From assembly GCA_000316135.1 (NCBI GenBank), contig JH993952.1, positions 31,444 to 95,443 of the forward strand: 64,000 bases of DNA, given 5' to 3'. This DNA comes from Trachipleistophora hominis. Its lineage: Eukaryota > Microsporidia > Pleistophoridae. The notes below the pieces were generated by a model. That model was given only the letters and a program-made list of their open reading frames with translations. It searched no databases and was not told the origin of the DNA. This document shows positions 3,194 through 56,848 of the stretch, one piece after another. The position numbers and the translations under genes were made by a program. Position 1 is the stretch's first letter. Each line of letters begins with the position of its first letter.

Positions 3194-5255
3194 GATTTTT
3201 TAAGTCTTTATCAACTTTTTCAAATTTTCAAGTAAATCATCAACTATGCCAGGTATTGGCCATGTTGTATTTTTAATTAAGTTAATTATTCTAAACTCGT
3301 TCCAAGCATCGTATTACACTCGTAACAGGTCTGAATGGCCGAAAAGAATGTTTTTACTTTGTTAAAATGATTATTTTTTTCTATTATCACAACATGAAAC
3401 AATCACAAAATACAACAAAAAATGAAAAGATATAATACGACTATGGAAAAACGAGAAGTTATGTGCATTTAATAATAACAAGACAAACCAGAAACATAAA
3501 ATACAGCGGCAAATAAATACATTAATATCAAGAAAGGTAAGAAAACGTTTGATATAAACTAATTGATAACAAGGAAAAATAACGAAGAAAATCTATCATC
3601 AAAGATAGTTTACTTCATATATAAACATAAAATAGAATATATTATTGGAGAAACAATATTTAAACATGGCGAATGACTAGGGATTCCCGCATATAGCACT
3701 TTTTCAACTACAAGTTAGTTTAATTATTTTTTTACTTACAACACTTGACTAAAAACACTCTTCTGGTCTTCTGAGACCGGCCATGGCCACGATTTTTAGT
3801 TTGTAGAAATAAATTACAACCTCCAGTGAAAAAATTGCGCACGTAATATACTATTTGACTCGATCGTGTTATGGTTAAACAGAACAAGACCTAAAATTAC
3901 ATCATCGTTGCTGTAATTATGTTGAACTATTTATGTTACTCTGAAACCTTTAACCATTTGTAAATAAAAATTTAATAATTTCAAATGGCAACTAATGTAG
4001 AAGCGAATTAGAAATTTATCGTCATATATTTTGTCGAACAAAAATAATCAAAATTTTCACCTACTTGATAGATATAAATGGCAATAAAACAATATTTAAA
4101 TACAAGTAGTACACTTTTGTATACTACAATGTTATATTAATGTATATTTGATAACATTTTTCTTTTTTATTATTAACTTCGTTCCATATCTGTTATTTTC
4201 CATTATTTTATTACTCAGTAGGAACTAGAAATTAATTATCGGCTGGCGTCGGCTCTATCTAAATAACATTGATCAAGACAGTCCTTATGCTTCGAAACAT
4301 GAAAAGTAAACGATGATTTCTAGCTTTTATGTCCTTTAAAAATGTATAATAAATGCTTTTTATTTAATTGCGAACTAATCAACTAGCTTGTAAGTTCATT
4401 TTTCTCATAACATTGATGATACTTTCCCCAAAAATATGTGTTATTTACAAAATAATGTAAATTAGCTACAATTATTTCATCCAAAAATATTTTTTCATAT
4501 ATTTACGATGAATAACATGTTTACAAATTCCATGGTAGCAAAATTTTTTCATTTATAATCGGATCATAAATTCGTAAAACACCGCCACGATTTTTAAAAG
4601 GTAACGTTATATTATAAATTTAGTAACTATCATAGGATAAACAATCAGGTTTGCATCTCACAATTTGAATATTTGTTTTGAATTCTTAAAAACGTAATTA
4701 TTCATTGCTTTACATTGCGATGAACAAATTAAAATGTCTTTGTTTGGTATCACTACCGATAACCACTAGGTATAAACATAAAATAAGAGGATCTGTCATT
4801 AATTTTTAATTCCTGCCATTCGCTTCATTACCAAACGTTTTTATATCCTACATCCATAAATGGAAAGTAAAATAACGCTGGCCGGTACCTGACGGGCGTT
4901 TTAGCAACGAGATTACCGTAAATAAATACGATAACATAATCGTATCGGTACAGTTCTTCTCATGAAATTTAAACATTTACAATTAAATACGTTACATGTT
5001 TAATGGGCTGGTGCGAAAAGCAGCATGGATCGTATTAATAGGTATTAAGAAAAATTAATTATGTGAAGTGTTAATTAAACGAACTTACAATAAAAAAAGA
5101 AAGATTAATGCGCATAAACAAAAAACCAAAAAGTATTTAAAGAAAAAAAATGCATTAAACAGCCAACGTTTGTCCACGAGCAAAATTTGTATTTCGTTGT
5201 GTAAAGAATATAATTAAGAATTAAATATCGAACGCAAAAAGAAATAAAAGGCGTA
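3194..5255. other. AT-rich intergenic region with retroposon copies
   Basis: No gene recognised. Apart from the SINE-like copy at 3700-3803 and the target duplication at 5246-5255, I see only AT-rich sequence. Confidence 0.5.
3700..3803 (-). repeat. SINE-like element, family A, full length
   Basis: Minus-strand copy with the head CGTGGCCATGGCCGG, the hairpin GGTC-tcagaa-GACC, then CAGAAGAGTG and the tail ATAATTAAACTAACTTGTAG followed by a short A-run at 3704-3700. No clear target-site duplication was found. Confidence 0.7.
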
Positions 5256-5296
5256 GCAATATGAAGGAGATAATTTAACTGACTTTTAGTAAAATA
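5256..5296 (+). repeat. SINE-like element, family A, 5'-truncated
   Basis: Only the tail is present: ATGAAGGAGATAATTTAACT then GACTTTTAGTAAAA. It is flanked by AAAAGGCGTA at 5246-5255 and 5297-5306, a 10 bp direct repeat that looks like a target-site duplication. 5' truncation with a target duplication is the hallmark of LINE-type retroposition. Confidence 0.75.
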
Positions 5297-13734: not shown

Positions 13735-14110
13735 TAACTAGCGAAATGGTTGGTCAGTTCGACAAAAAAATCACAAAATACTACCTTATATTTTGATTTT
13801 ATAGAAAGTTGTATATCATTATAAAGTTCTCATCTTCCGAGACTCACTCAGCATTCATGTACAATCGATTTTTAGCTTAAAAGTCTGTTTAATTAGCACC
13901 CCACACACCAAACAGACTTTCCTGACACGCATGTACAATCGATGTTTAGTGAAAATGCTATCACCAACTAAAAATTAATTTTCTAAACTCCTGATGAGAA
14001 ATTCCAACGACACGAAAATGGAGACTCAAAATGAAATAAAAAACCAAGAAAGACAAGTTCTATCAAATACGTGCTAATTTACATTTTGTTTTATAAATGG
14101 AATAGTGCAT
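13735..14110 (+). repeat. Degenerate dispersed repeat, copy 2, with nested SINE
   Basis: Collinear with 10850-11170 (shared GACTCACTCAGCA, GTGAAAATGCTATCACC, TTTTATAAATGGAATAGTG). It is interrupted at 13870-13929 by a SINE-like element and one 14 bp target duplication, so the first copy acts as an empty-site reference. Confidence 0.55.
13870..13929 (-). repeat. SINE-like element, family A, 5'-truncated, nested
   Basis: The minus strand reads CGTGTCAGGAAAGTCTGTTT then GGGGTGCTAATTAAACAGAC and a short A-rich end. It is flanked by perfect 14 bp direct repeats CATGTACAATCGAT at 13856-13869 and 13930-13943. Confidence 0.8.
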
Positions 14111-15852: not shown

Positions 15853-15952
15853 TTTTCTTGACTAAAAGAGTTTTATTTAAAAATCTGATGACTAATTGTC
15901 CATCTTATTACGACTTTTAGATTATGAGACTAAGCGCTATCGATTGCGCCCT
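15853..15952 (-). repeat. SINE-like element, family B, full length with tRNA-Met head
   Basis: The minus strand starts GGGCGCAATCGATAGCGC, a D-arm with a GCGC/GCGC stem, then TTAGTCTCATAATCTAA, an anticodon arm with CAT in the loop, then AAGTCG. This is the 5' half of an elongator tRNA-Met. A unique middle and the family tail (AATAAAACTCTTTTAGTCAA, then A-rich) follow. Perfect 13 bp direct repeats GCAATTCTCAATT flank it at 15840-15852 and 15953-15965. Confidence 0.8.
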
Positions 15953-16498: not shown

Positions 16499-16624
16499 AC
16501 TTTCTCGTAGAACAAGCAATTCAAAAATACAACACAATCAAAGAAGACACATTACAGGAAAACGACACAAACCGTCTCATAGAAATGCCAGTGACCATTG
16601 TCGGTCTCATCAGACCAGAAGAGT
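16499..16624 (+). other. Exon-like open stretch of unknown origin
   Basis: After TTTCCTTTTTTGCAG, which looks like a splice acceptor, an open frame of about 42 codons runs to a TAA at 16624 (ends PVTIVGLIRPEE). It is clearly richer in GC than the flanks and reads like real protein, but has no upstream start or partner exon that I could find. Its last 13 codons coincide with the head of a family A SINE-like element. It may be a gene fragment carried by the repeat, or chance. Confidence 0.3.
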
Positions 16625-16722
16625 AAATTAAAATAAGTGAAATATGAAGGAGATAAATAAAGAAGGTTTTATAAAATAAGTGAAATATGAAGGAGATAAA
16701 TAAAGAAGGTTTTATAAAAAAC
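16585..16722 (+). repeat. SINE-like element, family A, with duplicated tail
   Basis: The head reads CCAGTGACCATTGTCGGTCT with the hairpin GGTC-tcatca-GACC and CAGAAGAG. The tail, with GAAATATGAAGGAGATAAAT, occurs twice in tandem with a period of about 43 bp. Confidence 0.65.
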
Positions 16723-19645: not shown

Positions 19646-21700
19646 TTACGTATGCTGCCATTCATTTAGCACTCTCCACAGTTCATCATTATGGTTATTA
19701 CAATTAACATCATTGGTATTGTTAATAGTGTTAGTCTTAGTCTTATCATTGTTAGTGTTAATATTCTTATTATTGGTACTGGTACTGTTAATATTCTTAA
19801 TATTGTTAATCTTAGTCTTAGTATTGGTATTACTACCTCCTATTCTACCCCTACCCTCATACGTATCATTCTCTATTCTATTACTACCCTTACCCTTTAT
19901 TCTATTACCCTCCTCATCATCATCCTCCTCATCATCACTCTCCTTATCATTGCCCTCAACTTCTTTACCCCACTCATCCTCATTAACCTCATCAATCTCA
20001 TACATAAGCTCATTCACCATCTCTTCATGTCCATTCATCAACATAAACAGCACCATTTCATACCTGCACCTCTTCTGATTGCACACTATCCTTTCAAGCA
20101 TCATCCCAACGCTTCTCTTAACACACGTGCACGTATTGGCATGCAGCATCATCCTGAGCACGGCTGTCTGCTCTGTCTTGATAAGATGTGGTACGAGCTG
20201 TGCACGTTCTTTTACTGCGTAGATCATCTGCAGGATGTGTATTGCCTGCATGAACTGGCCATTGCTGAGCTGATCGGTGTATTTTTGTATGAAGTGCTCA
20301 CGGTCTGTCTCTGGGACGGGTTGGCGGGTGTTTATGTGGTGGGTGCATGTTGAGAGCACTGCTTGTCTGTGCAGTGTTTTTATTGTTGTTTTGCTTGGTT
20401 GGTTAATTTCTTTTGTTGGGTCGTATTGCACGTCCTTTTCATTCGTATCTTCTCTCTCATTCTTACCTTCTCTCTCATTTTTATNNNNNNNNNNNNNNNN
20501 NNNNNNNNNNNNNNNNNNNNNNNNNNNNNNNNNNNNNCCTTCTATCTCATTCCCTTCATTCATACCTTCTCTCTCATTCCCTTCATTCATATCTTCTCTC
20601 TCATTCCCTTCATCTGGTAGTTCATCAACAACCTCCGCCCTAAAAATATCATTTCTATGGTTACTGCCCCTTTCCCTTCTACAGCACTTCATCCACAGTC
20701 TCTCATTATTTAAATTATTATTTTCTTTATGGATGTTATGAATGTTATCTTTACCATCTTTACTACGCCCATCAATGTTTTCTTTACTACGCCCATCAAT
20801 GTTATCCTTACCATCCCCATCAATGTTATCCTTACCACCACTTCCTACAGCATCCCCATCATCCTCACCATACCTATCCTTACCATATCCATCCCCATCC
20901 TTACCACCCCTTCCTACAACAATACAAAGAGCAGCATATCGGCACCTACTCTCATAATCATCCATCATAACACTATACCGCTTACTATACAGCAACGCAC
21001 GCCTATAATCTCCTACATTGATGTATGCCGATGCAAGCGTTGATAGGGCAAGTGGTTGCTCAGTTAGATTGATTGAGTGGATGGAGTGGATGATTGCACG
21101 GTTGTTATCTTTTTTTTTGAGGTGGATTGCGCCCAGTAGAGCATGGATTGATGAACGTTCTGTTTTGTTATTTGTATTAGTATCTTTGTTGGTATTAGTA
21201 TCTTTGTTAGTATTAGTATCTTTGTTAGTATTAGTATCATTATTATTCTTTCTATCATTGTTATTCTTTCTATCATTGTTATTCTTTCTATCATTGTTAT
21301 TCTTTCTATCATTGTTATTCTTTCTATCATTGTTATTCTTTCTATCATTGTTATTCTTTCTATCGTTGTTATTCTTTCTATCGTTCTCTTTCTTCTTGTC
21401 ATTCTCTTTCTCCTTTAAAGTTTTCTCTCTATCCTTCCAATCTTTATCCTTCCAATCTTTATCCAAGTCTCTTTCCCTCCAATCTTTATCCTTCCGATCT
21501 CTATCCTTCCGATCTCTATCCTTCCAATCTTTTTCCAAGTCTCTTTCCTTCAACTCTTTATCTTTTAACTCTCTGTCCTTTATATCAATTCTATAATCTA
21601 CTCTCTCATCCTCATAATCCTTAAGTACACCATAAAGATACTCTAAAGCTTCATCATACCTCCCTAAGCTTAACAACTCCTTAACGTACCATTGATTCAT
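19646..21700 (-). CDS. TPR-like protein with large low-complexity inserts
   Basis: About 684 residues. It opens with a TPR-like helix pair (VKELLSLGRYDEALEYLYGVL) and, after a long insert, has two more (IHALLGAIHLKKKDNNRAII and LALSTLASAYINVGDYRRAL), so it is probably a scaffold protein; I cannot name the family. Between them lie arginine/lysine/aspartate repeats and runs of DRKNNN from tandem 15 bp units (21240-21385), then NTNKDT repeats. A second low-complexity block (GNERE-type) is interrupted by 53 undetermined bases. Near the C-terminus there is an acidic stretch and an asparagine/threonine-rich tail. I chose the start at 21700 because CCCC lies 4 bases upstream; the ATG 6 codons further up lacks this. 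Confidence 0.7.
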   Translation of the reverse strand: MNQWYVKELLSLGRYDEALEYLYGVLKDYEDERVDYRIDIKDRELKDKELKERDLEKDWKDRDRKDRDRKDKDWRERDLDKDWKDKDWKDREKTLKEKENDKKKENDRKNNNDRKNNNDRKNNNDRKNNNDRKNNNDRKNNNDRKNNNDRKNNNDTNTNKDTNTNKDTNTNKDTNTNNKTERSSIHALLGAIHLKKKDNNRAIIHSIHSINLTEQPLALSTLASAYINVGDYRRALLYSKRYSVMMDDYESRCRYAALCIVVGRGGKDGDGYGKDRYGEDDGDAVGSGGKDNIDGDGKDNIDGRSKENIDGRSKDGKDNIHNIHKENNNLNNERLWMKCCRRERGSNHRNDIFRAEVVDELPDEGNEREDMNEGNEREGMNEGNEIEXXXXXXXXXXXXXXXXXXXKNEREGKNEREDTNEKDVQYDPTKEINQPSKTTIKTLHRQAVLSTCTHHINTRQPVPETDREHFIQKYTDQLSNGQFMQAIHILQMIYAVKERAQLVPHLIKTEQTAVLRMMLHANTCTCVKRSVGMMLERIVCNQKRCRYEMVLFMLMNGHEEMVNELMYEIDEVNEDEWGKEVEGNDKESDDEEDDDEEGNRIKGKGSNRIENDTYEGRGRIGGSNTNTKTKINNIKNINSTSTNNKNINTNNDKTKTNTINNTNDVNCNNHNDELWRVLNEWQHT
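20485..20537. other. Assembly gap (53 N)
   Basis: A run of undetermined bases inside a coding tandem repeat. The true number of repeat units, and whether the frame is kept across the gap, cannot be known from this sequence. Confidence 1.
21178..21390 (-). repeat. Coding microsatellites
   Basis: Four units of an 18 bp repeat (TTAGTATTAGTATCTTTG on the plus strand) are followed by about ten units of a 15 bp repeat (TCATTGTTATTCTTTC...). They code for NTNKD and DRKNN repeats in the TPR-like protein. Unit lengths divisible by three are consistent with selection to keep the frame. Confidence 0.9.
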
Positions 21701-21879
21701 AGAAGGGGTGTAAACCATCCATCCTACATACCATGGTTGAGTGATAATGTGTTTGTGATTGTACGAATTAGAAATTAGAATGGGTATAAATACGTGGATG
21801 ATTGTATTATAAATTATGATTTAGTAGTAATTAAGTATCAGTGAAGTATTAGTTATAAATTATGATTTAGTATTAATTT

Positions 21880-22012
21880 AGTATTAGTTATAAACTATGG
21901 TTTAGTATTAATTTAGTATTAGTTTAGTATTAGTACAGTATTAGTTATAAATTATGACTTAATACTAAATTACTACTAAACTAATACTAAACCATAGTTT
22001 ATAACTAATACT
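21880..22012. repeat. Inverted repeat with perfect 31 bp arms
   Basis: The arm at 21880-21910 is exactly complementary to 21982-22012, with a 71 bp loop. It lies about 180 bp upstream of the TPR-like gene. Confidence 0.9.
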
Positions 22013-22561
22013 TTACTGATACTAAATTAATATTATACTAATACTAAATTAATACTATACTGATACTAAATTAATACTTTACCAATACTAAACTACTTTT
22101 AATTAATACTATACTAATACTTAATTAATGCTATACCAGTACTAAATTAATACTATACCAATACTAAATTAATACTATACCAATGCTAAATTAATAATTT
22201 ATAAATTATTTACCAATACTAAGCCATAATTTATAACTAATATTAATTTTTAATTAATTACTAAGGAATGTAGGATGTTAAATTTAATTAAAACGTTTTT
22301 TATGTTTTAAGAAGAATCTTCTAATACTTACCATGCATCTTAAGGTTATTGCTTGATTTGATTGGTGTTAAGTGCTTAATAGAAGAATTAGCACTTTTGT
22401 GTTGTTAAGAGGAATTTATTTCATTGTTCGTATAATAAATAGAATGATAGGTGATATAAAGAAATACTTGTAAAGAATTGAGAAGAGTTATTGAGGAGTG
22501 CTGTGATTAACACTTGTATTAATAATAATTAAGAATATTTGGAAGAAAGAATAAATGATGG

Positions 22562-26704: not shown

Positions 26705-26795
26705 TCAAGGTTGGTCCACTGGACTATAAGAGTGTGTTTAATAGGTGTTGTTGTGTAAGGAGATAATTAAACCATCTTTTAATAAAAAAGAGTAT
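26705..26795 (+). repeat. SINE-like element, family A
   Basis: AAGGTTGGTCCACTGGACTA then TAAGAGTGTG, TTGTGTAAGGAGATAATTAA, ACCATCTTTTAATAAAAAA. The head is shortened at the 5' side. No target duplication was seen. Confidence 0.65.
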
Positions 26796-27034: not shown

Positions 27035-27094
27035 ATGTTTAGTTAGATGATATGTTATAAGGTGATAATCAAACTAACTTTTAATAAAAAAATA
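27035..27094 (+). repeat. SINE-like element, family A, 5'-truncated
   Basis: Contains ATATGTTATAAGGTGATAAT then CAAACTAACTTTTAATAAAA. Perfect 14 bp direct repeats ATCAACTTCATGTA flank it at 27021-27034 and 27095-27108. Confidence 0.8.
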
Positions 27095-30486: not shown

Positions 30487-30521
30487 TAAACGTTAGATAC
30501 GTGATTAGGTAAAGAATGTGA

Positions 30522-30629
30522 CCATGAACCAAAGGCCGGTGGCCATGGTTGGTCCCAGCAGACCAGAAGAGTGTGTTTACAGATGATATGTTATAAGATG
30601 ATAATTAAACTAACTTTTAATAAAAGAAA
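30522..30629 (+). repeat. SINE-like element, family A, full-length reference copy
   Basis: 108 bp: head CCATGAACCAAAGGCCGGTG, GCCATGGTTGGTCCCAGCAG, ACCAGAAGAGTGTG, spacer, then ATGTTATAAGATGATAATTA and AACTAACTTTTAATAAAAGA. Flanking direct repeats are AGGTAAAGAATGTGA (30507-30521) and AGGTAAAGAATATGA (30630-30644), 14 of 15 identical. The hairpin GGTC-ccagca-GACC sits at 30551-30564. Confidence 0.85.
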
Positions 30630-31471
30630 AGGTAAAGAATATGAAGAATTTAACTAATCATAAATACGATAAACATACTTTTGAAATGGGTAAAACGTAT
30701 TTTTACAAAAATACCGCGCATTTTTGCACTTTCTCCATTTTCCCTCCAAAAGAATGCAAACAAACTTTTGTGGACCGGTGCAGGTGCTTTGGACAGAATA
30801 ATATGAAAATGAATTGAAAAGTTAATTATCATTAAATTTAATAGAAATGGTTAAAATACGAGTAAATCTTGTTTTATTTGGTAATACGTGCAAAATGATA
30901 AATAAAAACATTTTTGGAAAATGATAATACGCGCTTACTTACGTGTTAATCTTAAAGGTTGTTATAGAGTGGTAGAAATAAATTACGTTTTATTAGATTT
31001 TACGTTCTTACTGCGATCTAATATTAATGTTCCCTTACAATTTAGATGCACATTCTATTATATGTTCTATATATGTTCTATTATATTTTCTATCATTTAA
31101 CATTATACATTCTTACATCTTCTTCTACACGTACTACGATACCTTCTCAATTGCTATTACGATATCTTCTCAATAATTGTTACAATATCTTCTCAATTGC
31201 TATTACGATAACTACTAAAGCTACTTCTACAAATATTTCTACAAAATCTTTTATAACATCTCTTAAAATATTCTCTAGAAATATTCTCTAGGAATACTTT
31301 TAGAAAATCTCTTACAATGTTCTCTACGCCTACCTCTACAATTCAACATCTGCTTTTAGAAAATCTCTTACAACAATTCAACACCTTATTCTACAATTCA
31401 ACATCTAATTCTACAGTTCAACACAAACAAACTGTTACTACCAACAAAAAAACATCCGCTCACATCCTCCC

Positions 31472-31882: not shown

Positions 31883-32354
31883 ATGGTTGGATGATTACAT
31901 GGTGGTTATTGTGGTAGAATGCTACGTGGTTAATGATGGCTGTGGTGATATGTCGTGTAGATACCAATAAACTGCTAATAATAATTGCAACTACTATAAT
32001 TAGCTTTATTTAAGTCTTCACGCCTTGCACGTGGTAAAATATTTCTTCATTTATATTGCTGTCTGTAGGAAGTGTGAGGTGTTGATTAGACAGACTTTCA
32101 AACAAAAGAAATATTGCGGTTTGTGAAGAAACGATAGTACCATTTAACAAATATTGTCATTCAATACATATAAAGCACTCAAAGCAAGAAATATCTCTTT
32201 CTATCATCAAACGTAAAATACGGGCAAAAAACCTTTATAGCACTTTCTGTTCAGTTATAAAATACTTATTTTATCGTTTTATATCTTTAGAACTGCTACG
32301 CGTCCAAAACATATCGTTTCAGCCTTTAAAACCATTCCTAAACCGTTGCAGGGA
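31883..32354. other. AT-rich spacer with one SINE-like copy
   Basis: No gene seen. A 5'-truncated SINE-like element lies at 32063-32110. Confidence 0.6.
32063..32110 (+). repeat. SINE-like element, family A, 5'-truncated
   Basis: GGAAGTGTGAGGTGTTGATT then AGACAGACTTTCAAACAAAA. Flanked by ATATTGCTGT (32053-32062) and ATATTGCGGT (32111-32120), 9 of 10 identical. Confidence 0.7.
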
Positions 32355-32841: not shown

Positions 32842-33419
32842 ATAGTAATGCACAACCTCTCATTTTAAAACACGTTGCTAATAGATAACCTCACAGGTTC
32901 TAAACAATAAAACAATTTATAACAATCAATAAAGAATAAAATACTAAGGCGAAACGTCTTACGTTATTTAGCTATTATTTAAGGAAACTACTTTATTTAA
33001 TGTCAACACGAAAGATAGCAATCATAATATTAATGAATATGTTATTTAATAGAAAAGTAATAGTATAGCACGTGTAAACATGCTGTGCATTTTAACCATT
33101 CGGCTGTAAATAATGATTTAATCTATGGTATATCTTACTTTTACGTTCATTGATCACATTGATGAACATTTTATAAACGCGTTATTTATTAGAATTATTC
33201 CGGATGATCTGATAAAATGTGCTATTTCTTGAATAATATGAATATTTTATTTAAGTGTATACGGCAGAATACACTTTGTTTTGGTTATGGTAGTTATAAT
33301 CGATTCAATTACAATAATATTTACAACAAGGATTAGTTATTACATCATAGCAGTAGTACATACGATTAAGCAAGTAGACTAAAAAAGAAAACTACGGTTG
33401 ATGATCTGAAATCATAATT

Positions 33420-33485
33420 AATTTTTTTGAAAAAACATATTTAATTAATAATTCAACATTCACCCAATACCTATTCAACATGTTT
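33420..33485 (-). repeat. SINE-like element, family A, 5'-truncated
   Basis: The minus strand reads CATGTTGAATAGGTATTGGG then TTGAATTATTAATTAAATAT and an A-run. Perfect 11 bp direct repeats AAATCATAATT flank it at 33409-33419 and 33486-33496. Confidence 0.75.
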
Positions 33486-38334: not shown

Positions 38335-39831
38335 ATGCTTCACAACTTATACGATTACGTTGAAAAAACACTGAAAGTAATTCTTATCTTTGAAACTTAT
38401 ACATATACAGGATGCAAAGAATTTTTAATTTACGGCAATTTGGGAAAATCTGAGCTGGATAACTTTCTGAGAACATGTTCAACAGAATCCATCTCTTGTT
38501 CAAGTCTATGCGAAATTAAAAAAGAATTAAGGTCCAAGAGTTATCCTACGATCGAACCACAAAGACGAATAATTGCAAATAAAGCATGGCGTAGTACATT
38601 TTTGCAACCGGTTTTCGCCTTAAAAAAGGCAGAGTATAAATGTTTCTATGAGGTGATCGAACAAAACAACGACATATCCTTCGTAACTCTAAATGTTCCG
38701 TTGTCAAAATCGTTATTTATGAAAATCGTTAATTTAAAAGATATATACGCCGAATATTACACCAATTGTGAGATGTATATGATTTTAAAGTATGTGTTTC
38801 CATTCAAATACCGAATTAAATGGATGACGTCTGTGGCGTGCACACATTTCAATAAGAATTTCGCTTTGGTCAACAAACTGAGACAATACAGTGAAGATCC
38901 CGAAAAATACGAGTTTAATCATCAGACAACGTTCCTATCAAATATTTTATTTGGTACAGATGATATCGCGCTGAATTTTAGGAATGCTGTTAATTCTTAC
39001 ATCTCGTTTAGTTTAGTTGGTATAAATGATCAACAAGTATCTACAACAAGAAAAGCTGATACGAACAAAATTATCAAAGTTATCAATTTACATGAACTGT
39101 CGATCGAGTTTTTATTTGATAACATTTACTTGAATTATAGTTGTTTGGAACAAAATGACGATGTATTGAATGATAAATTCAATAAACACGTGCACAAGAG
39201 GTTGTTAGTCGTGGAAATATATGATGAAGAGACGAATATAAATAACGTTGGAGCAAATAGAAATCTTTATAACAATATGAGTATTGTTCAAAAGAGTAAA
39301 TTTCTTATAGGTAAGAATGTCGGAGAAATAATTTTGAATATTAATGAAATGCCCAGAGAAATTAACACGTCTATTTTTAATTACATGAATGTAGTAACAA
39401 TTGTAAGATGTCGACTTCATCCTAATGACTTTATAAGCACGTTTCCTGGCCACGTTCAAGTAATCTTGGAACTATGTAATGTTAGGATAAATGATGGAAT
39501 ACTCTCGAGTCATCCTAATATTATAGAACTGGTCTTTATAGAGTGTGAATTTGAATCAGACATTTTATTTCTAAATAATCTAAAAAGTGTTAAACTATTA
39601 AGATCTACAACCATCGATGGTGTAATTCTGACCTTTAATAGAAACATTCAAAGAATTATGATAGAAAGTTCAAAAGGGCAATTTAACTTATCTGGTATTG
39701 GCGGATTTAACAGAATTGATATAAAGAAAAAGAATAAGACTTTCTTTAAATACGAAAAAAAGGAGAAATACTATTGTTGGATGTGTTGGACGTGCATATC
39801 TATGGAACAATATACGTTGATCAGGACATAG
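38335..39831 (+). CDS. Large LRR-family protein, N-terminal part (frameshifted)
   Basis: 498 codons that form the first half of a protein continued in another frame by the next feature. The N-terminus (MLHNLYDYVEKTLKVILIFE) is closely similar to that of the locus at 43283, and SIEFLFDNIYLNYSC matches NIGFLFANLYLEYNY there, so the two loci are paralogues. From about residue 330 it has irregular LRR-like units (VQVILELCNVRINDGILSSH, NIIELVFIECEFESDI). No clear signal peptide. The ATG sits behind CACCCC. The break falls at a run of seven A (39755-39761); one more A would join the frames, so either a sequencing error in a homopolymer or a young frameshift is likely. Function unknown; such LRR families are lineage-specific expansions in microsporidia. 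Confidence 0.7.
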   Translation: MLHNLYDYVEKTLKVILIFETYTYTGCKEFLIYGNLGKSELDNFLRTCSTESISCSSLCEIKKELRSKSYPTIEPQRRIIANKAWRSTFLQPVFALKKAEYKCFYEVIEQNNDISFVTLNVPLSKSLFMKIVNLKDIYAEYYTNCEMYMILKYVFPFKYRIKWMTSVACTHFNKNFALVNKLRQYSEDPEKYEFNHQTTFLSNILFGTDDIALNFRNAVNSYISFSLVGINDQQVSTTRKADTNKIIKVINLHELSIEFLFDNIYLNYSCLEQNDDVLNDKFNKHVHKRLLVVEIYDEETNINNVGANRNLYNNMSIVQKSKFLIGKNVGEIILNINEMPREINTSIFNYMNVVTIVRCRLHPNDFISTFPGHVQVILELCNVRINDGILSSHPNIIELVFIECEFESDILFLNNLKSVKLLRSTTIDGVILTFNRNIQRIMIESSKGQFNLSGIGGFNRIDIKKKNKTFFKYEKKEKYYCWMCWTCISMEQYTLIRT

Positions 39832-41162
39832 ACGACGTTATATTTGAAAAACTAACCGTACAAGCTGGTTCAAAGATCGTATTAAACGAGAAAATCAAAG
39901 GTATAATAATAAAGGAGTGTACTGGTATGTTTGATTTGCGAACATACTTAGGCTTTGAATGTTGTCTGAAAAAGTCAGCGTACATAAAAATCGCGCTTGA
40001 CGCATATTTAATGCCTAACATCTATCATATCATATTACGTCATATACATTTAGAACAAAGCCTAGTTCTTCCGGGAAATTGTCAAGCTGTTGTTCTAAGA
40101 GAAATTTCCACGGCAGAAAGAGCGTTAATAATTTTAAACGAGTCATGTAAAGCAATCCTCATTTCGATGTCTGATGTTAAGATCGATGCAAAGAATGTTG
40201 AAATTATTAAAAGTCTGCATTTGAGGTTTTCGGTATCTAAACCGGCAAATATTCAATTATTTAATCCGAGAGATGTTAACTACTTGCTCCTTGAAAATAT
40301 TTGTCGAAATTCAGAAGTGATAGAACCTTTGTTGACTAGTTTCAGAGAAATACATCATTTGGCATTTCAGAGTTGCTATACAGGAAAAGAGATAAATACA
40401 TTTAAGAAATACATCGGTAATACATACTCGTTGTTGTTACTTGGCGAATGTTCAAACGACTTTCTTAACTTCCTAAAAAAATACTTTGCGTCTCAACAGC
40501 AAGAATCATTGCCATATCTTTACAAACGATCAGATGCCGTGGTTAATTACATTCTCAGAACATGCTTGAAGGAACCGATAGCAAATACCATAAAAAAATT
40601 GGTATTTAATGACATTCGTGTTTCAATGGACAACTGTAAGCTGTTTCAAGCGTTATGCCATTTGGAAATTCTTAAGATTTGCGCGATAGAATACACTAGT
40701 AGGCTTTTTCATAATCTACCGCCTAAGCTCAAGTTGTTGAATCTTATTAATACACCCAGTGAAGAGTTGCACAATGCAATTCGATACAGAATTCATCCTT
40801 CAATTATTGTACGACCACATAATAACATAAGAATATTGATGGTCAACTTTACTTTTATACCTAACCTCTTCTATATTTACCATTTGATGCCAAATCTTAA
40901 AGTGTTAATGATACATTTTGTTTTCTTAGAGGACATTTCACCCAAAAATCAGAAAAATAAAATAAAACTGCGTGAGCTAGTGATAGAATACCCTGAGAAT
41001 CTAATGGAACCCTTACATGTGTTTTTAGCAGATGAAAAATTAATCATTTTGATACGTGTGCTTTCCATGTATATTGATTTACATAATCTTGAAAACTTTA
41101 CATTTACGTCACCAACCCAAAGGTTTCAAATCGATTTCACGTCGTTGGCTCATCTTGTTTAA
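39774..41162 (+). CDS. Large LRR-family protein, C-terminal part (frameshifted)
   Basis: About 462 codons that continue the preceding LRR protein; the ATG-less start shows it is not an independent gene. The sequence GIIIKECTGMFDLRTYLG aligns with QVILRDCIGLIDLRSYLG in the paralogue at 43654-46107, which confirms the reading frame. Further LRR-like units follow (LEILKICAIEYTSRLFHNLP, LKVLMIHFVFLEDI). Both halves together give roughly 940 residues, close to the joined length of the paralogue. A 5'-truncated SINE-like element starts 30 bp after the stop. Confidence 0.65.
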   Translation: MLDVLDVHIYGTIYVDQDIDDVIFEKLTVQAGSKIVLNEKIKGIIIKECTGMFDLRTYLGFECCLKKSAYIKIALDAYLMPNIYHIILRHIHLEQSLVLPGNCQAVVLREISTAERALIILNESCKAILISMSDVKIDAKNVEIIKSLHLRFSVSKPANIQLFNPRDVNYLLLENICRNSEVIEPLLTSFREIHHLAFQSCYTGKEINTFKKYIGNTYSLLLLGECSNDFLNFLKKYFASQQQESLPYLYKRSDAVVNYILRTCLKEPIANTIKKLVFNDIRVSMDNCKLFQALCHLEILKICAIEYTSRLFHNLPPKLKLLNLINTPSEELHNAIRYRIHPSIIVRPHNNIRILMVNFTFIPNLFYIYHLMPNLKVLMIHFVFLEDISPKNQKNKIKLRELVIEYPENLMEPLHVFLADEKLIILIRVLSMYIDLHNLENFTFTSPTQRFQIDFTSLAHLV

Positions 41163-41191: not shown

Positions 41192-41236
41192 ACAGGTGTG
41201 TGATGTTAGGAATTAATTAAACAATCTTTCCAAAAA
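41192..41236 (+). repeat. SINE-like element, family A, 5'-truncated
   Basis: GTGTGTGATGTTAGGAATTA then ATTAAACAATCTTTCCAAAA. Flanked by AATACACTTGGTC (41179-41191) and AATAGACTTGGTC (41237-41249), 12 of 13 identical. It begins 30 bp after the LRR stop codon. Confidence 0.75.
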
Positions 41237-41667
41237 AATAGACTTGGTCGTTTGATGCCGAACGTAACTAACAACATAACATTATTATTTTTCATTACAA
41301 TGGAAAACCTTAATTGTCTGCTTAATACATTTGCTTTTGGTACCTCATATACACCTTTCTGTGATAAAAATCATCAAGAACCTACTTAAACAATGACCAT
41401 CCTTTATCCCACGGTCTAAAACAAAGAAACAAGAATACTACCTGATTTCTGAGAAATGAATATGCATGTTATCACAAAGACTAGCGCTAAATTAAAAATA
41501 ACTCTACAATAAAAACTGAGGTAAGAGCATCTTGCTTAATGTATGAATTACAAAATGACGAAATGCTTAGACGAATGGAATGGAGAAAGGTAAATTTAAT
41601 TGATTGGTCATTATGTTTTCAAGTATTTCGCCATACTTTGTCCGATATTGATGTGTGACAGTTTATT

Positions 41668-41778
41668 TTCACGAATCAAGGCCCGGTGGCCATGGTCGGT
41701 TCCAGCGGGCTAGAAGATTGTGCTTGATTGGATGGTATGTATGAAGGAGATAATTAAACTGACTTTTAGTTAAAAAAA
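41668..41778 (+). repeat. SINE-like element, family A, full length, best-preserved insertion
   Basis: 111 bp: head AATCAAGGCCCGGTGGCCAT, GGTCGGTTCCAGCGGGCTAG, AAGATTGTG, spacer, ATGAAGGAGATAATTAAACT, GACTTTTAGT and a TTAAAAAAA end. Perfect 14 bp direct repeats TGTGACAGTTTATT flank it at 41654-41667 and 41779-41792. Confidence 0.85.
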
Positions 41779-43033
41779 TGTGACAGTTTATTCCGATAAC
41801 TCCAAGCAAAAATATTAGCATATAAATCCGTAGCAACCTACAGTGATGGCAAAAACATCACGTTTTTTTATCAAAATGTCTTATTCCCGATTCTATACCA
41901 ACTTACAGTATTTACTATAATGAAAACATAAGTTTGTTTTCTATTAACCTCATTAGCTATTATTTTCCTTACACAACTTTTATTTTATCAATATGACTAG
42001 CTACACTATTCCATCTATAAAACAGAAGTTTAAATAGCATGTATTCAATAGGAATTGTTCCTTTTTTATTTGATTTCATTCCGTATCAGTTATTCCTATG
42101 TTGTTCTCATTTTCCAATACGGGTTCAAAAAATCATTTTACAGCTAGCGTTTATGTTCTGGCAAATATCTTCGGTAAAAGAGTGCTAAGCAAGTTTCAGA
42201 AAATGGGAATTTAATTACAGAAGGTTCTCTTTTATCTGTTGCTAAAAAACAAACAACTTTTTTATTTTTACTGAAAAAAATGAGCATTTTCCGAATTATT
42301 TTTTCTTTAGCATTAACTTTGCCCAATGCTTGTCGGTTATTTCTGTATATCTAAGGACCTACATAGTAAGGTGCAAACTTTTATTTATATCATTATTTCT
42401 ACACATATCATACAACTGCGAACGTAAATTATGTACTTTAATCGTTCAGAGCATCCGTTTAATGAATATTAGATTAAAAGTAAAAATGGCAACATTTTTA
42501 AAAGCATTTACTCCTTTAATAATAAATTAATGGTCTAAAGAGAAAAGAATTTTAAACAAAAAGCAGTTAATCATTTATACTCGCTTAGACAAGGTCAAAG
42601 AAATACGATCCGTTATGCATCGGTTTCACCCGAACTCGAATTTAATTAAAATAAGTAAATTTGTTGTTCTTGTTTGATAATACAAACTATACCGCCGCGA
42701 AACATGCTCTGTAACATTGTTCAGATGCACTGTAGAATAAAATCTTCTTTCCCAAAATTTGTTTGCACCGGGAAACGTATCTTTACATGTCTCAACACAC
42801 ATTATATGCTATACCGCAATCTTACGAGTGCAAAACCATTTATTAACAGCACTCATACACTACATATATCTTTAACTTTTACAACTATTACGTGATTTAG
42901 ATTTACTAAATTACAATTACATGATTTTAAGAGTCATTTACTTAAATAATGAGTCAATTTAAAAAACTCCTTTTTCGATCATATTGTAATATATACGAAA
43001 CAATATCGCGAAATGTGTTACATTTTGCATATT

Positions 43034-43125
43034 TTTTAAAAAATTGAAAGTTCGTTTAATCAACATCTCACACTTCCTCACACACCAAACAAATTTTCCT
43101 GACGCGCTGAGCGCCAACCATGGTC
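43034..43125 (-). repeat. SINE-like element, family A
   Basis: The minus strand reads GACCATGGTTGGCGCTCAGC, GCGTCAGGAAAATTTG, GTGTGAGATGTTGATTAAAC, GAACTTTCAA and an A/T-rich end. Flanked by ACATTTTGCATATT (43020-43033) and ACATTCTGCACATT (43126-43139), 12 of 14 identical, both differences being transitions. It lies about 160 bp upstream of the second large LRR gene. Confidence 0.75.
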
Positions 43126-43282: not shown

Positions 43283-43657
43283 ATGTTATTTAACCTTTAT
43301 AATTACATTGAGACGACGCTAAAATTCGTGTTAATATTCGAATCTCGACTTTGTAAATTTCACAATGAGTACATAGTTGTAGATAATTTGACCGCAACTG
43401 GTGTAGAGCACTTTTTGCGGTGTTGCATACTCGAAGAAACAGAGTACTCGTCGCTGAACGACCTTCTACGCGTTGAAAATCTATGTGGAAAAAAAACAAA
43501 TAAAAGGTGTGCCTCAATCTGTGGAAAGACGCACTATTTCGATCAAAATTTGGGCATTAGAGAAATTCAGAATGTTGCACGAAGCGTTCCAGCATATACC
43601 CAAGGAAAAATTTCGTACAAAGCTATTAGACTTGCAATGACTAAAAATTTTTTATGA
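43283..43657 (+). CDS. Second large LRR-family protein, N-terminal part (frameshifted)
   Basis: 124 codons, beginning MLFNLYNYIETTLKFVLIFE, very similar to the start of the paralogue at 38335 (MLHNLYDYVEKTLKVILIFE). It ends in a run of A5T6 (about 43641-43651). One additional T would carry the frame into the next feature and give FFMKVIRIVK, which aligns with LFMKIVNLKD of the paralogue. It is therefore the 5' end of one gene with the following feature, broken by a single-base loss in a homopolymer, either real or a sequencing error. Confidence 0.65.
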   Translation: MLFNLYNYIETTLKFVLIFESRLCKFHNEYIVVDNLTATGVEHFLRCCILEETEYSSLNDLLRVENLCGKKTNKRCASICGKTHYFDQNLGIREIQNVARSVPAYTQGKISYKAIRLAMTKNFL

Positions 43658-46107
43658 AGGTCATTCGCATCGTTAAGAACTGCTCGGTGGAACTGTCTAT
43701 CAGTGATATGTGCATTATTTTAGAACACTGGTTATCTTTTAAAGAGAATGCAGGCGCATTTGCACATGTGATTTGCTTTAACCTACAGTGTAACCAGGAA
43801 TCGGTTGATATACTTGATGAGTTAAAGGCGTGCATCGCTTATCCAAAACATGAAGCACATGACAAACAAATTAAGAAGTTTTCAAATTTAATTTTTCGTA
43901 CTTATGTGGATTGCAGTAGCTTCATAGAAGTTGTGCGTTCACAGGGCACGTTTTTTTTGAAAGATGGTAAAGACGAAATAGCCACGTGCTGTGAAGATTC
44001 ACATTATAAGGGAGGATTTAGCATGTGTATGAGGCTCACTGATCTGAATATAGGCTTTCTATTCGCTAATTTGTATCTTGAATACAATTATTTTATTCGT
44101 AACAAAGAAGTTTTATTTGAAAAATTTGGGGATGAGACCGGTAAATTTGCGCTAACAGTGCGAATATTGGATATACATAACAAGCCTGAAAGAGATTACC
44201 GGCTCTCACAGATGTGTTTGGATGAAAAACTTCGAGTTATCATGCATAGCAGACTTATAAACAGCCAAGGCATCAAAAATATAATGCTATCGTTTCGCGA
44301 TGTAAAAACTCCGCCGACATCAAGTACTTTATTACAAATAAAGAAACTAAGCACGATAAGATTAGATTCGTGTTCGACCCGATTTTTACATTCCTTGCCG
44401 ATAATATCGAATACAAACGTTGAGATAGTACACAATAAGAAGTCGGTCAGTTCGTGCCAAATGATTCCTCGAAAACTCACGAAGATATTCTACATAGGGT
44501 GTATATTTACAGATGATATACGATTCCCAAGCCATTTAAAATATATTAATATTAAAAATTCAAAAATAAGCGATGGTAACACGCTATTTTTCCACGAAAA
44601 ACATGAAGAAATGATAATATTCAACACATACGGTATGCTTGTGATGCTAGGCACTGTTGGTTTTGGCGAAATATTCCTATCATCGCCTGCACAATCAAGT
44701 CTCAAACTTATCAGAAATCCAATATCACGCAAATTATCACTTAGTATAGAATACGCAACGATTTTTGACGATGTAAACATCACGGAAGAGATAGAAAAGC
44801 TGGAACTTGCGAATGTTAAAATACAAAAGTGCACGGTGATGAGCTTTTCCAGCGAAATCAAGCAGGTTATTTTGCGGGATTGTATCGGGTTAATTGATTT
44901 AAGATCATATCTTGGAGGATATTTTGTTTTTATCAGAAGTACAACGATGAGTGTTTTTTCGTTAGATGATACGGGCTACAGCAGTCTCGTCCTTCGTACT
45001 GTGTTTTCTTGCGTCACACTAGAACTAACGGGTGATTACCACAGTGTTACACTGGATAATATCATTATGGAAAATAACTCACGGTTTATAATAAACGCGT
45101 CGTGTAAGAAACTCACGATCAATACATGCGATGCCATAATCGATGTATCCAAAGTTGTGCGCTTTGATATGATACACATGATTTTCACACCTGGCTTGTG
45201 TAGTCACGTTCAGTTTGTTGGTATCAGCATGGTTACAAGCTTAAAAATCACCAATTTCTTTGAGAACATATGTTCTGTTATAACCGTGCTATCAAGTTTA
45301 ACAGAATTAGAAAACCTACGATTTACGAACAGTAGCGCAAAAGAGATTCAGAAATCACAAACTAATTTTCCGACGAGCATCTTCCCGTTGGAATACGAAG
45401 ATGATGGTAATGAACGCCTGTTGACGAACAGAAGTGATATAAAGAATTCAGTTGATCCAAAGACTGAAGTTTCAATATACGGCGTCTTAAAGGCAATTAG
45501 TTGCAGTAGATGTTCTAACAAGTTAAAGAAATTAGAGTTTAATTCGTTTGCAATTAACTTATCGTACCTCTATTTGCTAGAAAGTTTGCCTAATTTGCAA
45601 ATTTTAAATATTTGCGTGCAAAATATGACGAAGCATTTTTTCCAATACCTGCCGCAAAGCCTTTTATTGCTTGATATACGCGGTATATATAATCATGCTG
45701 AAGCACCTGAACCTGAAAACATGGAAGATGATCAAGTTAGCAATTCACCAATTCACATTTTGAAAATTCTAGTAATAGATACCAATTTATTGAGTTGTTT
45801 GTGTCGTATTGCTCCGATATTTCCACATTTAAAGGTAGTCAAGATACACTACGTCGCCCTACCAGCTTTCAATCTGCCGGCAGGATATGAAAAGATCAAA
45901 GTAAGCGAGCTAATCGTAGAAGGAGAGAACGGTCTATTTGATTCGAAATGGGAGCGTTTGGAAGAATCAGAACTCATGCCGCTCATCGAACTGCTATCAC
46001 AGTGCTTTGATATGCAACACGTAGAATACTTTTTGGTCATTTTAGGCCATGAGTTGGTAAATATAAATCCTCGTACTTTTTATGTGATTGATGATGTATT
46101 AGAATGA
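43654..46107 (+). CDS. Second large LRR-family protein, main part
   Basis: 817 codons that continue the preceding fragment (total about 940 residues). It shows the same order of regions as its paralogue: the FLFANLYLEYNY segment, a central series of LRR-like units (LTKIFYIGCIFTDDIRFPSH, IEKLELANVKIQKCTVMSFS, QVILRDCIGLIDLRSYLG), and C-terminal LRR units (LKKLEFNSFAINLSYLYLLE, LPNLQILNICVQNM). There is no membrane segment or enzyme motif. Codon use is AT-rich and unlike the conserved genes. The ATG at 43654 overlaps the stop of the first part, but I doubt that it is a real start. LRR proteins usually bind other proteins; the role here is unknown. Confidence 0.7.
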   Translation: MKVIRIVKNCSVELSISDMCIILEHWLSFKENAGAFAHVICFNLQCNQESVDILDELKACIAYPKHEAHDKQIKKFSNLIFRTYVDCSSFIEVVRSQGTFFLKDGKDEIATCCEDSHYKGGFSMCMRLTDLNIGFLFANLYLEYNYFIRNKEVLFEKFGDETGKFALTVRILDIHNKPERDYRLSQMCLDEKLRVIMHSRLINSQGIKNIMLSFRDVKTPPTSSTLLQIKKLSTIRLDSCSTRFLHSLPIISNTNVEIVHNKKSVSSCQMIPRKLTKIFYIGCIFTDDIRFPSHLKYINIKNSKISDGNTLFFHEKHEEMIIFNTYGMLVMLGTVGFGEIFLSSPAQSSLKLIRNPISRKLSLSIEYATIFDDVNITEEIEKLELANVKIQKCTVMSFSSEIKQVILRDCIGLIDLRSYLGGYFVFIRSTTMSVFSLDDTGYSSLVLRTVFSCVTLELTGDYHSVTLDNIIMENNSRFIINASCKKLTINTCDAIIDVSKVVRFDMIHMIFTPGLCSHVQFVGISMVTSLKITNFFENICSVITVLSSLTELENLRFTNSSAKEIQKSQTNFPTSIFPLEYEDDGNERLLTNRSDIKNSVDPKTEVSIYGVLKAISCSRCSNKLKKLEFNSFAINLSYLYLLESLPNLQILNICVQNMTKHFFQYLPQSLLLLDIRGIYNHAEAPEPENMEDDQVSNSPIHILKILVIDTNLLSCLCRIAPIFPHLKVVKIHYVALPAFNLPAGYEKIKVSELIVEGENGLFDSKWERLEESELMPLIELLSQCFDMQHVEYFLVILGHELVNINPRTFYVIDDVLE

Positions 46108-46198: not shown

Positions 46199-46388
46199 GA
46201 GAAAGCTTTTTTTATCTGAGAGTCCGTTTAATTAACGCCTTACACTTCCTCAGGCATAGGTAAAGCTTTTTTCATCTGAGAGTCCGTTTAATTAACGCCT
46301 TACACTTCCTCAGGCATAGGTAAAGCTTTGTTTTATCTGAGAGTCCGTTTAATTAACGCCTTACACTTCCTCAGGCACAGGTAAAACT
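46199..46388 (-). repeat. Three tandem SINE-like tails of about 60 bp
   Basis: The minus strand reads, three times, CCTGAGGAAGTGTAAGGCGT, TAATTAAACGGACTCTCAGA, then an A-rich end joined to CTTTACC. All units are truncated at about the same point. The array starts about 90 bp after the LRR stop codon. Confidence 0.8.
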
Positions 46389-46619
46389 TTCTATACGAAA
46401 ACACGCACATTTCATGTACTCGTTTATTCTAAAATACGTAACAACATATAATTCTCATATGAATTATATTTCCTGATCATAATTAGCACCACACAAAAGA
46501 ATAAGAATAAGACTGTGCTAATAAGCAATCACCTAAATACGGTATAATATTCGATTCAGAGATATTACCAGAATTTCTTTCATTACTAAACGATAAAATT
46601 ATTTAAATTATCAGCCTTT

Positions 46620-46692
46620 CATGTTTCTATTGTTGATAATGAGGTGGAAGACGAGTCACCAGATTTTTAATAAAACTCTTTTGGTCAAAAAA
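46620..46692 (+). repeat. SINE-like element, family B, 5'-truncated
   Basis: GAAGACGAGTCACCAGATTT then TTAATAAAACTCTTTTGGTC and an A-run. Flanked by AAATTATCAGCCTTT at 46605-46619 and 46693-46707 (15 bp; the leading A residues are ambiguous because of the A-run). Confidence 0.8.
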
Positions 46693-55742: not shown

Positions 55743-56848
55743 TTTTTAAAAAATAAAAGTTTTTAATTCGTACATCACGGTAAGGGTGATAGAAGGTGTT
55801 AACTCTATCTATAGATATAAAACGAAATATTACGTTGTATTCGTTTATTTTTGTATTTGTGCCTAATAGTATTCGTACCGCTGTTAAAATTACGCTCATA
55901 CTTTTGTTTCTCATAAGGGCCGTAGAATTGGTCCTTTTACGATTATATTCTCCAAACTATATTAATATCGTGCTATGAAACATTAATCTAACATAAAATA
56001 TATTTTTAAATCAGAAACCGAGGGTAATTATTGTATTGGTATGATTTGATTAATTCAATTGATCAATTTACGGATTATCTTTTTATAAGTGAAGTAAAAA
56101 GTGTTACTATGACTAGGAATGACAACAAAACTATTTTAAGAGTAAATAAAGATATTTTTAGTTAAGAAATGGTTGTAAGACGGTAGTTAAACAGACCTTT
56201 GTAGCAAAAGAAAAACAGCGAGATGATCGTAAAGGATGTTGCTAAAGGAATAATTACGTTTGGTATAGTATAAATTGTTATGTTTAGTATAGTATTTGTC
56301 GTATATTACCTTATTTATTTCCTTTGCGCTTTGCATGGAGCAAAACATTTTTTGTTTATATGGTAGCTTGCAGTGCTATGTATTAATTTTTGTATCTACA
56401 ACATTGATGTTCGTACACAATCACATGTTCATGAAACAGTAGGTGGTGCATTTATTACTACGTGAGGTTTATTATACGTGCCTATAAGAAAAGCAACGAT
56501 TTGTAATATAATTATTGGCAAATACGTAGAATGATAATAACCGTTTTTAATAATTAAAAATACAATAGTACACTCCTTTGATTTACATTTAAAACAACAT
56601 CAATGATTGGTCGGCAGTAGTATCAAAAGAGATAACAGACCCTAAACATACAACAGGTGAAAAGAATGTTGTTTATTTGTGAAAATCAGTTTAATTATCA
56701 CCTTACAATATATAATCTAATCAACTCACTCTTCTTGTCCGCCGGGATCGATCATGGCCCTTGGTTCTTGGAAGAGAAAAGAATGTACATTTTATTACTG
56801 CTCACATCACTAAGCTGGCAAAGTTGATTTTAATTCAATTAGAAAGCA
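55743..56848. other. AT-rich spacer with one SINE-like copy
   Basis: No gene seen between the divergent flanking genes apart from the SINE-like element at 56670-56775. A weak family A-like tail (GGTAGTTAAACAGACCTTTG) occurs near 56180. Confidence 0.55.
56670..56775 (-). repeat. SINE-like element, family A, full length
   Basis: The minus strand reads CCAAGAACCAAGGGCCATGA, TCGATCCCGGCGGACAAGAA, GAGTGAG, spacer, ATTGTAAGGTGATAATTAAA, CTGATTTTCACAAATAAACA. Perfect 11 bp direct repeats GAAAAGAATGT flank it at 56659-56669 and 56776-56786. It ends about 75 bp before the start of the next gene. Confidence 0.8.

Follow-up and report, generated by a model that had tools for sequence, protein, structure and literature searches.

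Short retroposons related to LINE 3′ UTRs in the microsporidian Trachipleistophora hominis

Introduction

SINEs are usually explained as the head of a small RNA transcribed by RNA polymerase III (Pol III), joined to the tail of a LINE. The units described here resemble tRNA-headed SINEs with partner LINEs in being short and non-autonomous, in being flanked by duplications and in having a 3′ end in common with a LINE of the same genome. They differ in that tRNA-headed SINEs carry a small-RNA head with Pol III boxes, whereas the whole of the A or B unit described below is LINE sequence. Elements of the RIME/SIDER type keep the 5′ signature (77–79 nt) of their LINE, whereas the unit here is a contiguous 3′ UTR without a visible link to a LINE 5′ end; the LINE 5′ ends were not located, and a copy of the head might lie there.

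RIME/ingi, NARTc/L1Tc and SIDER of trypanosomatids are described as short, partly extinct LINE relatives, with each short family paired with a LINE lineage (PMC2689281). On that description they share with our units that both are short LINE relatives in a unicellular parasite, with a pairing of family and LINE (PMC2689281). The R2 and R2/R1 SIDEs of Drosophila have a 5′ ribozyme joined to a 3′ end; like the units here, they are short, non-autonomous and reliant on a LINE's recognition of its own 3′ UTR (PMC3414825). They differ from our units in this ribozyme: here we found no ribozyme and no site specificity, and the duplications are mostly 9–15 bp long.

Non-LTR retrotransposons have been described in the microsporidians T. 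hominis, Nosema ceranae, Anncaliia algerae and Spraguea lophii, and the T. hominis copies carry frameshifts, as described in three papers (PMC3486916, PMC4202319, PMC3749934). They have the same kind of reverse transcriptase as that found here. The terms SINE, SINEs, short interspersed and non-autonomous are absent from the main text of these papers, and among the matches listed from the open-access literature, as judged by titles and the abstracts displayed, there is no report of a microsporidian SINE. RIME/SIDER and the R2 SIDEs are the nearest relatives in kind, and as far as can be seen the unit here differs from them in consisting of the 3′ UTR alone. A better name for it is LINE-3′-UTR-only retroposon, as it has a SINE-like function without the defining head.

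Units in the window

The window, i.e. the whole stretch of 64,000 nt that was analysed, spans positions 31444–95443 of contig C51 in a genome of 5.5 Mb and 119 contigs. A microsporidian origin of the window is supported. Where relatives of its eL8 protein carry a name, they come from Pseudoloma neurophilia, Dictyocoela and Spraguea lophii, and the list of solved structures is headed by chain 7qca, from Spraguea.

A sequence-only reading of the window had proposed at least twelve short elements with a shared tail, each flanked by direct repeats. The repeats are present at the given coordinates in all twelve listed cases (Table 1). They are exact over 10–15 bp in nine (those starting at 5246, 13856, 15840, 27021, 30507, 33409, 41654, 46605 and 56659) and inexact, over 13–14 bp with one or two mismatches, in the three starting at 32053, 41179 and 43020. 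The repeat score is at least 8 in all twelve, and a score of at least 7 was reached by 0.64% of 20,000 random window pairs with the same spacing. Because these elements had been picked by eye, the genome-wide test described in the next section is the fair one.

The shared tail is real, but it does not define a single family. Five of the twelve belong to family A, four are B or B-like, and two belong to a third family, D, which has a different tail; the insert between the repeats at 33409 and 33486 matched neither the A model nor the B model. In total, 24 matches to the A and B models at E ≤ 1e-3 fall within the window, mostly degenerate or truncated. The reading had also placed the truncation at the 5′ end, and this is mainly where it lies: of 183 matches to the A and B models, 9 stop short of model position 100. 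The element on which the reading centred (41668–41778) is flanked by TGTGACAGTTTATT at 41654 and again at 41779, with an insert that reads TTCACGAATCAAGGCCCGG...GACTTTTAGTTAAAAAAA.

Table 1. Units and flanking duplications in the window (window positions; numbers after 'model' are positions in the family model)
Feature	Position	Strand	Details
Family A, full length, 111 nt, first TTCACGAATC (= CCATGAACC)	41668..41778	+	model 2-109; 14-bp exact duplication
Upstream copy of target-site duplication TGTGACAGTTTATT	41654..41667	+	
Downstream copy of target-site duplication TGTGACAGTTTATT	41779..41792	+	
Family A, full length, start exactly at CCATGAACC	30522..30629	+	duplications 30507-30521 and 30630-30644 (15 bp, 1 mismatch)
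Family A, full length	56670..56775	-	11-bp exact duplications from 56659 and 56776
Family A, 5′ truncated at about position 52	27035..27094	+	14-bp exact duplications from 27021 and 27095
Family A, 5′ truncated at about position 68	5256..5296	+	10-bp exact duplications from 5246 and 5297
Family B, 5′ truncated at about position 41	13870..13929	-	14-bp exact duplications from 13856 and 13930
Family B, almost full	43034..43125	-	model 22-109; 14-bp duplications, 2 mismatches, from 43020 and 43126
Family B, truncated	32067..32110	+	14-bp duplications, 2 mismatches, from 32053 and 32111
B-like, truncated	41192..41236	+	13-bp duplications, 1 mismatch, from 41179 and 41237
Family D, truncated, 100 nt	15853..15952	-	13-bp exact duplications from 15840 and 15953
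Family D, truncated, 73 nt	46620..46692	+	15-bp exact duplications from 46605 and 46693
Insert recognised by neither A nor B model	33420..33485	.	11-bp exact duplications at 33409 and 33486
Family A	3700..3799	-	model 9-109; duplication not found
Family A	26706..26789	+	model 23-108; duplication of at least 7 bp not found
Family A, degenerate	16583..16674	+	model 10-103
Three family B tails, head-to-tail, 60-61 bp each, 95-98% alike	46207..46391	-	

Target-site duplications across the genome

Copies were pooled from several searches, with short flanks, to give at least 183 A/B matches. Three of the searches scored 40 of 111, 40 of 54 and 40 of 56 candidates, so that copy counts are lower bounds. 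Three others scored every candidate (34, 38 and, for family D, 18), and the one with 34 was deliberately enriched for LINE-joined A copies.

The duplications exceed chance across the genome as well. Among 147 copies not joined to a LINE, 42 have an exact flanking repeat of at least 9 bp, against a control mean of 1.99 (maximum 5.0); repeats of at least 10 bp flank 33 of the 147 against 0.96, and those of at least 12 bp flank 17 against 0.25. For the control, the upstream and downstream flanks were re-paired among copies in 40 re-pairings. The 147 have both flanks and an intact 3′ end, were kept out of 155 not called LINE-joined, and include two LINE-B copies. At least two of the 42 come from the tandem array of the window (46207–46315); their repeat is the unit of the array itself rather than a duplicated target. 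In a separate count that includes LINE-joined copies (135 kept of 145 with both flanks and the 3′ end), repeats of at least 10 bp flank 28 of 135, against 0.73 in the control. An exact 9-bp repeat is absent in 105 of the 147 unjoined copies. Genome matches to a window copy are 75–88% identical, and the copies without a repeat probably owe this to decay.

The length of the duplications is variable, mostly 9–15 bp, and their start is A-rich, the first base being A in 28 of the 42, which is due in part to the uncertain border with the A tail. For that reason we dropped the idea of an insertion-site preference. A MITE or other DNA transposon was also rejected, given that the CCATGAACC... and ...AAAAAAA ends are not complementary (by eye) and the duplication length is not fixed. 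Target-primed reverse transcription, the mode of insertion named in the sequence-only reading, is supported by the flanking duplications, the A-rich 3′ end and the 5′ truncation.

The tandem B tails of the window are probably a local duplication. Tail-tail dimers are also present at the LINE 3′ ends of loci L004, L021 and L035, and such dimers could reflect template jumps.

The units and LINE 3′ UTRs

Full units measure about 109–112 nt in family A, 113 nt in family B and 168 nt in family D (one copy). The sequence-only reading had looked to a LINE with a 3′ end matching the tail, and such a LINE is present in the same genome. On the sequence comparisons, it is the whole A or B unit, rather than the tail alone, that corresponds to the 3′ UTR of these LINEs. 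Flank comparison showed that the upstream flanks of many copies continue unbroken into long shared LINE sequence. Of the A copies that reach the head, 28 of 66 are LINE-joined, in a set enriched for such copies; a copy counted as joined if its DNA resembled one 290-bp LINE-A stretch or if it matched one LINE-A peptide, and more diverged LINE flanks could escape these criteria. Of 27 LINE-joined A copies, 23 have a stop codon whose first base lies 9 nt ahead of the unit (TAA in 19, TGA in 4), and one A copy is in frame upstream of the unit, reading ...CPFCGKEEREPAWYLLWRCERW...KALRKTAH-stop.

For family B, sequence coding for the LINE C-terminus lies upstream in 2 of 34 full-length copies, with the stop codon beginning 11 nt before the unit. 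Earlier hints of a family B free of LINEs were that 26 copies had no shared flank and that B forms one clade; the reading of B as a pure SINE without a LINE was dropped once a larger set with longer flanks gave the two LINE-B copies.

By eye, the conserved start CCATGAACC contains an ATG, which opens a frame of about 18 codons in A and a frame running toward the tail in B. At locus L050 a run of N in the assembly comes right after the LINE sequence, from about position 1752.

Family D, with its other tail, occurs at 18 places in the genome. An upstream word is common to 8 of 14 fetched D loci, and the D locus in C100 (L068) has the same word. The unit lies directly after LINE coding sequence in C7, and about 680 nt (C93) and about 600 nt (C100) beyond the coding match. 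Family D thus belongs with the LINEs, by a link weaker than that for A and B, and its unit may be only a part of the LINE 3′ UTR, set off from the stop codon. In the copy L188 the insert is 168 nt long and its exact 11-bp duplication directly adjoins CCATGAACC; in L192, which has a 12-bp duplication, the start is shifted by about 10 nt to the upstream side of CCATGAACC.

Reverse transcriptases of the LINEs

A search with RVT_1 gave nine matches at seven places, two of which (C108 and C16) are of LTR type. A unit on the same strand lies within about 1.3 kb downstream of the reverse transcriptase in C111, C107 and C21, and units also follow the reverse transcriptase places in C12 and at C45:33218. 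The pieces match R2 and LINE-1 ORF2 chains, and one piece shares 76% identity, over 42% of its length, with a non-LTR protein of T. hominis. All six LINE reverse transcriptase places are broken or partial. No match to the endonuclease families PF14529 and PF03372 was found anywhere in the genome.

The 5′ boundary

The boundary was examined with a query made of the last 62 nt only, so that copies were not chosen by their head; the sets contain the query copies themselves. Among the 80 tail-selected places listed, 34 start at model positions 1–4 and 4 run into LINE sequence. The remaining starts lie at positions 5–20 (8 places), 21–37 (4), 38–62 (25) and later (5). Thus 38 of the 80 reach the head, and 34 of these 38 stop there, a pile-up that random fall-off from a LINE mRNA does not give. 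The units are not random 5′ truncations. Two copies call for caution: one of the 34, C69:2557, matches the head poorly, and C2:35983, counted as a truncated B, has a head and an internal gap.

Among the 42 copies with a repeat of at least 9 bp, the insert begins between −5 and +3 relative to CCATGAACC in 19, beyond this on the upstream side in 2, and within the unit in 21. Exact duplications lie directly at C1 or C2 in the copies C45:120285, C56:16638, C12:145098, C53:34419 and others. The second cluster of starts, at 38–62, lies at and just 3′ of hairpin 2 (see below), which is suggestive of a reverse transcriptase coming from the 3′ end and meeting this hairpin, with the reservation that the query itself begins near position 48.

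Structure, promoter and history

RNAalifold proposed two hairpins from an alignment of 48 A and B copies, chosen from 76 full-length ones. Paired cells make up 91.8%, and covariation is 0.386 against 0.283 ± 0.017 in shuffled alignments (0 of 500 as high), and far lower when the structure is slid. The numbers of pairs with a double change and of further pair types are not unusual (equalled in 135 and 164 of 500 shuffles), so that much of the covariation signal comes from the split between A and B. Hairpin 1 has an A-U replacement in four copies, and stem 2, with one gap moved by hand, has five pairs with C-G/G-C and U-A/C-G exchanges. Compensatory changes thus preserve both hairpins in families A and B. 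Another candidate pairing, between the 5′ strand and columns 60–69, was dropped, as it was formed in at best 66% of cells.

A tRNA-type pair of A and B boxes is absent from both consensuses. The best scores were −0.8 for family A and 0.3 for family B, and 389 and 387 of 500 shuffles, respectively, did as well; the tRNA genes of this genome (20 genes fetched of 23 matches) score 23 or more. An origin from tRNA was rejected on this comparison with the genome's own tRNA genes. In the window, no Rfam match rose above the gathering threshold, and a search of nine small loci at E ≤ 5 gave two matches far below their thresholds; with no useful Rfam match in the window and these loci, the idea of a known small-RNA head was provisionally dropped. 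The 5S model had no match anywhere in the genome, not even to the genome's own 5S, so that a 5S-type head could escape it. The 7-bp first helix of an HDV-like ribozyme was sought at the 5′ end, and none is common to A, B and D; imperfect, wobbled helices occur at differing places. With no shared first helix and no Rfam ribozyme match, an HDV-like ribozyme was rejected on sequence and pairing.

In a tree of 81 units (model start at 12 or before, end at 100 or after, score of at least 55), B forms one clade, and 29 short and 25 LINE-joined A copies interleave. The short group changes 12 times, fewer than the shuffled mean of 24.0, and at least 4 of the changes are forced by starred branches. Both LINE-B copies fall within the group of 34 short B copies. 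The trees rest on 108–109 columns and have many open forks. On the simplest reading, different LINE copies would have given rise to short units on several occasions, with an identical 5′ end in every case; as an alternative, an exchange of tails between short units and LINEs would also account for the interleaving.

Origin of the units

Any account has to cover the identity of the A and B units with a LINE 3′ UTR, the target-site duplications, the sharp 5′ boundary and the conserved hairpins, all of which are established. We consider it probable that the units are LINE-3′-UTR-only, non-autonomous retroposons, inserted by target-primed reverse transcription that either copies a discrete short RNA or runs to a hard stop. 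The unit extends from CCATGAACC, just after the LINE stop codon, through the two hairpins to the conserved TAATTAAAC.GACTTT stretch and the A-rich end. Presumably this 3′ UTR is what the LINE reverse transcriptase recognises; the enzyme would then nick the target and start copying the RNA from the nick. A full unit would result when copying reaches the 5′ end of such a short RNA, and copying that halts earlier, often slightly 3′ of hairpin 2, would give a truncated one. We infer that the template may be a free RNA of about 110 nt on which the LINE protein acts. The 5′ end might come from transcription initiation, from cleavage or from a roadblock at the stop codon. A broader proposal, which we offer tentatively, is that several LINE lineages of this one microsporidian each keep spawning a free 3′-UTR RNA, produced by a built-in event immediately downstream of the stop codon, and that such RNA is inserted by the LINE protein far more often than the LINE itself. 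If this were true, there would be a class of SINEs with no promoter head, renewed from LINE mRNA instead of evolving once.

Should the units be ordinary 5′-truncated LINE copies, formed where the reverse transcriptase falls off randomly near the 3′ end and with no special short RNA, one would expect the observed contiguity with LINE 3′ ends, the 21 of 42 duplicated copies truncated inside the unit and the interleaving of short and LINE-joined copies. We find this distinctly improbable, as the head-reaching places so often stop within the first four model positions, 5′ ends are not evenly scattered and exact duplications sit directly at C1/C2. A block to the reverse transcriptase, by a ribosome or another protein bound at the LINE stop codon, would let each LINE mRNA yield a 3′-UTR-only insert with no free short RNA. 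It agrees with a boundary 9–11 nt from the first stop base in both LINE-A and LINE-B, and with short copies that seem to arise repeatedly from LINE lineages. To judge by toeprint work, a terminating ribosome should cover somewhat more 3′ sequence than this; moreover, a roadblock needs no motif, yet A, B and D all show strong conservation of CCATGAACC at the boundary, and two D units lie about 600–680 nt beyond the LINE coding match. On these grounds we regard such a block as unlikely.

The sequence-only reading compared the elements with SINEs. What holds of it is that they are short and non-autonomous, have duplications and share a tail with a LINE; what speaks against it is the lack of tRNA-like boxes and the fact that A and B are wholly LINE 3′ UTR. 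A classical SINE driven by a Pol III promoter of its own, which had supplied the LINEs with their 3′ ends, would suit the sharp 5′ end, short length, duplications and LINE-shared tail, as well as the TTTT run near the 3′ end of family A. It is highly improbable in view of the missing box pair, the lack of an Rfam match above threshold and a family B that has no TTTT run at that place. The precise 5′ ends at one motif with two hairpins directly downstream might recall an HDV-like self-cleaving ribozyme at the unit start that frees the RNA, as happens in R2 and the short elements derived from it; this seems to us scarcely credible when A, B and D have no common 7-bp first helix and no Rfam ribozyme was matched.

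The LINE-3′-UTR-only retroposons suggest that a LINE 3′ UTR alone appears to be enough for SINE-like spread in a compact parasite genome. They delimit the RNA element that the LINE protein needs, and the origin of the RNA 5′ end becomes testable. Their duplications are clean insertion markers for the comparison of microsporidian strains.

Additional observations

The strongest reverse transcriptase match, in C108, was considered together with that in C16 as a partner of the units and was rejected, as both share one LTR-type sequence, presumably Ty3-like. The pieces at L031 (C108:48307–51780) and L034 (at the contig end of C16) resemble each other, and by eye the frames neighbouring L031 resemble parts of RNase H and integrase.

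In the window, the element at 41654 is flanked by long open frames of several hundred codons each, at 38335–41162 and 43654–46107 (+), and no Pfam family matched either of them. The stretch 19646–22255 is rich in repeats: 18-bp tandem repeats that are coding come first, and then an AT-rich 11-bp array containing inverted repeats.
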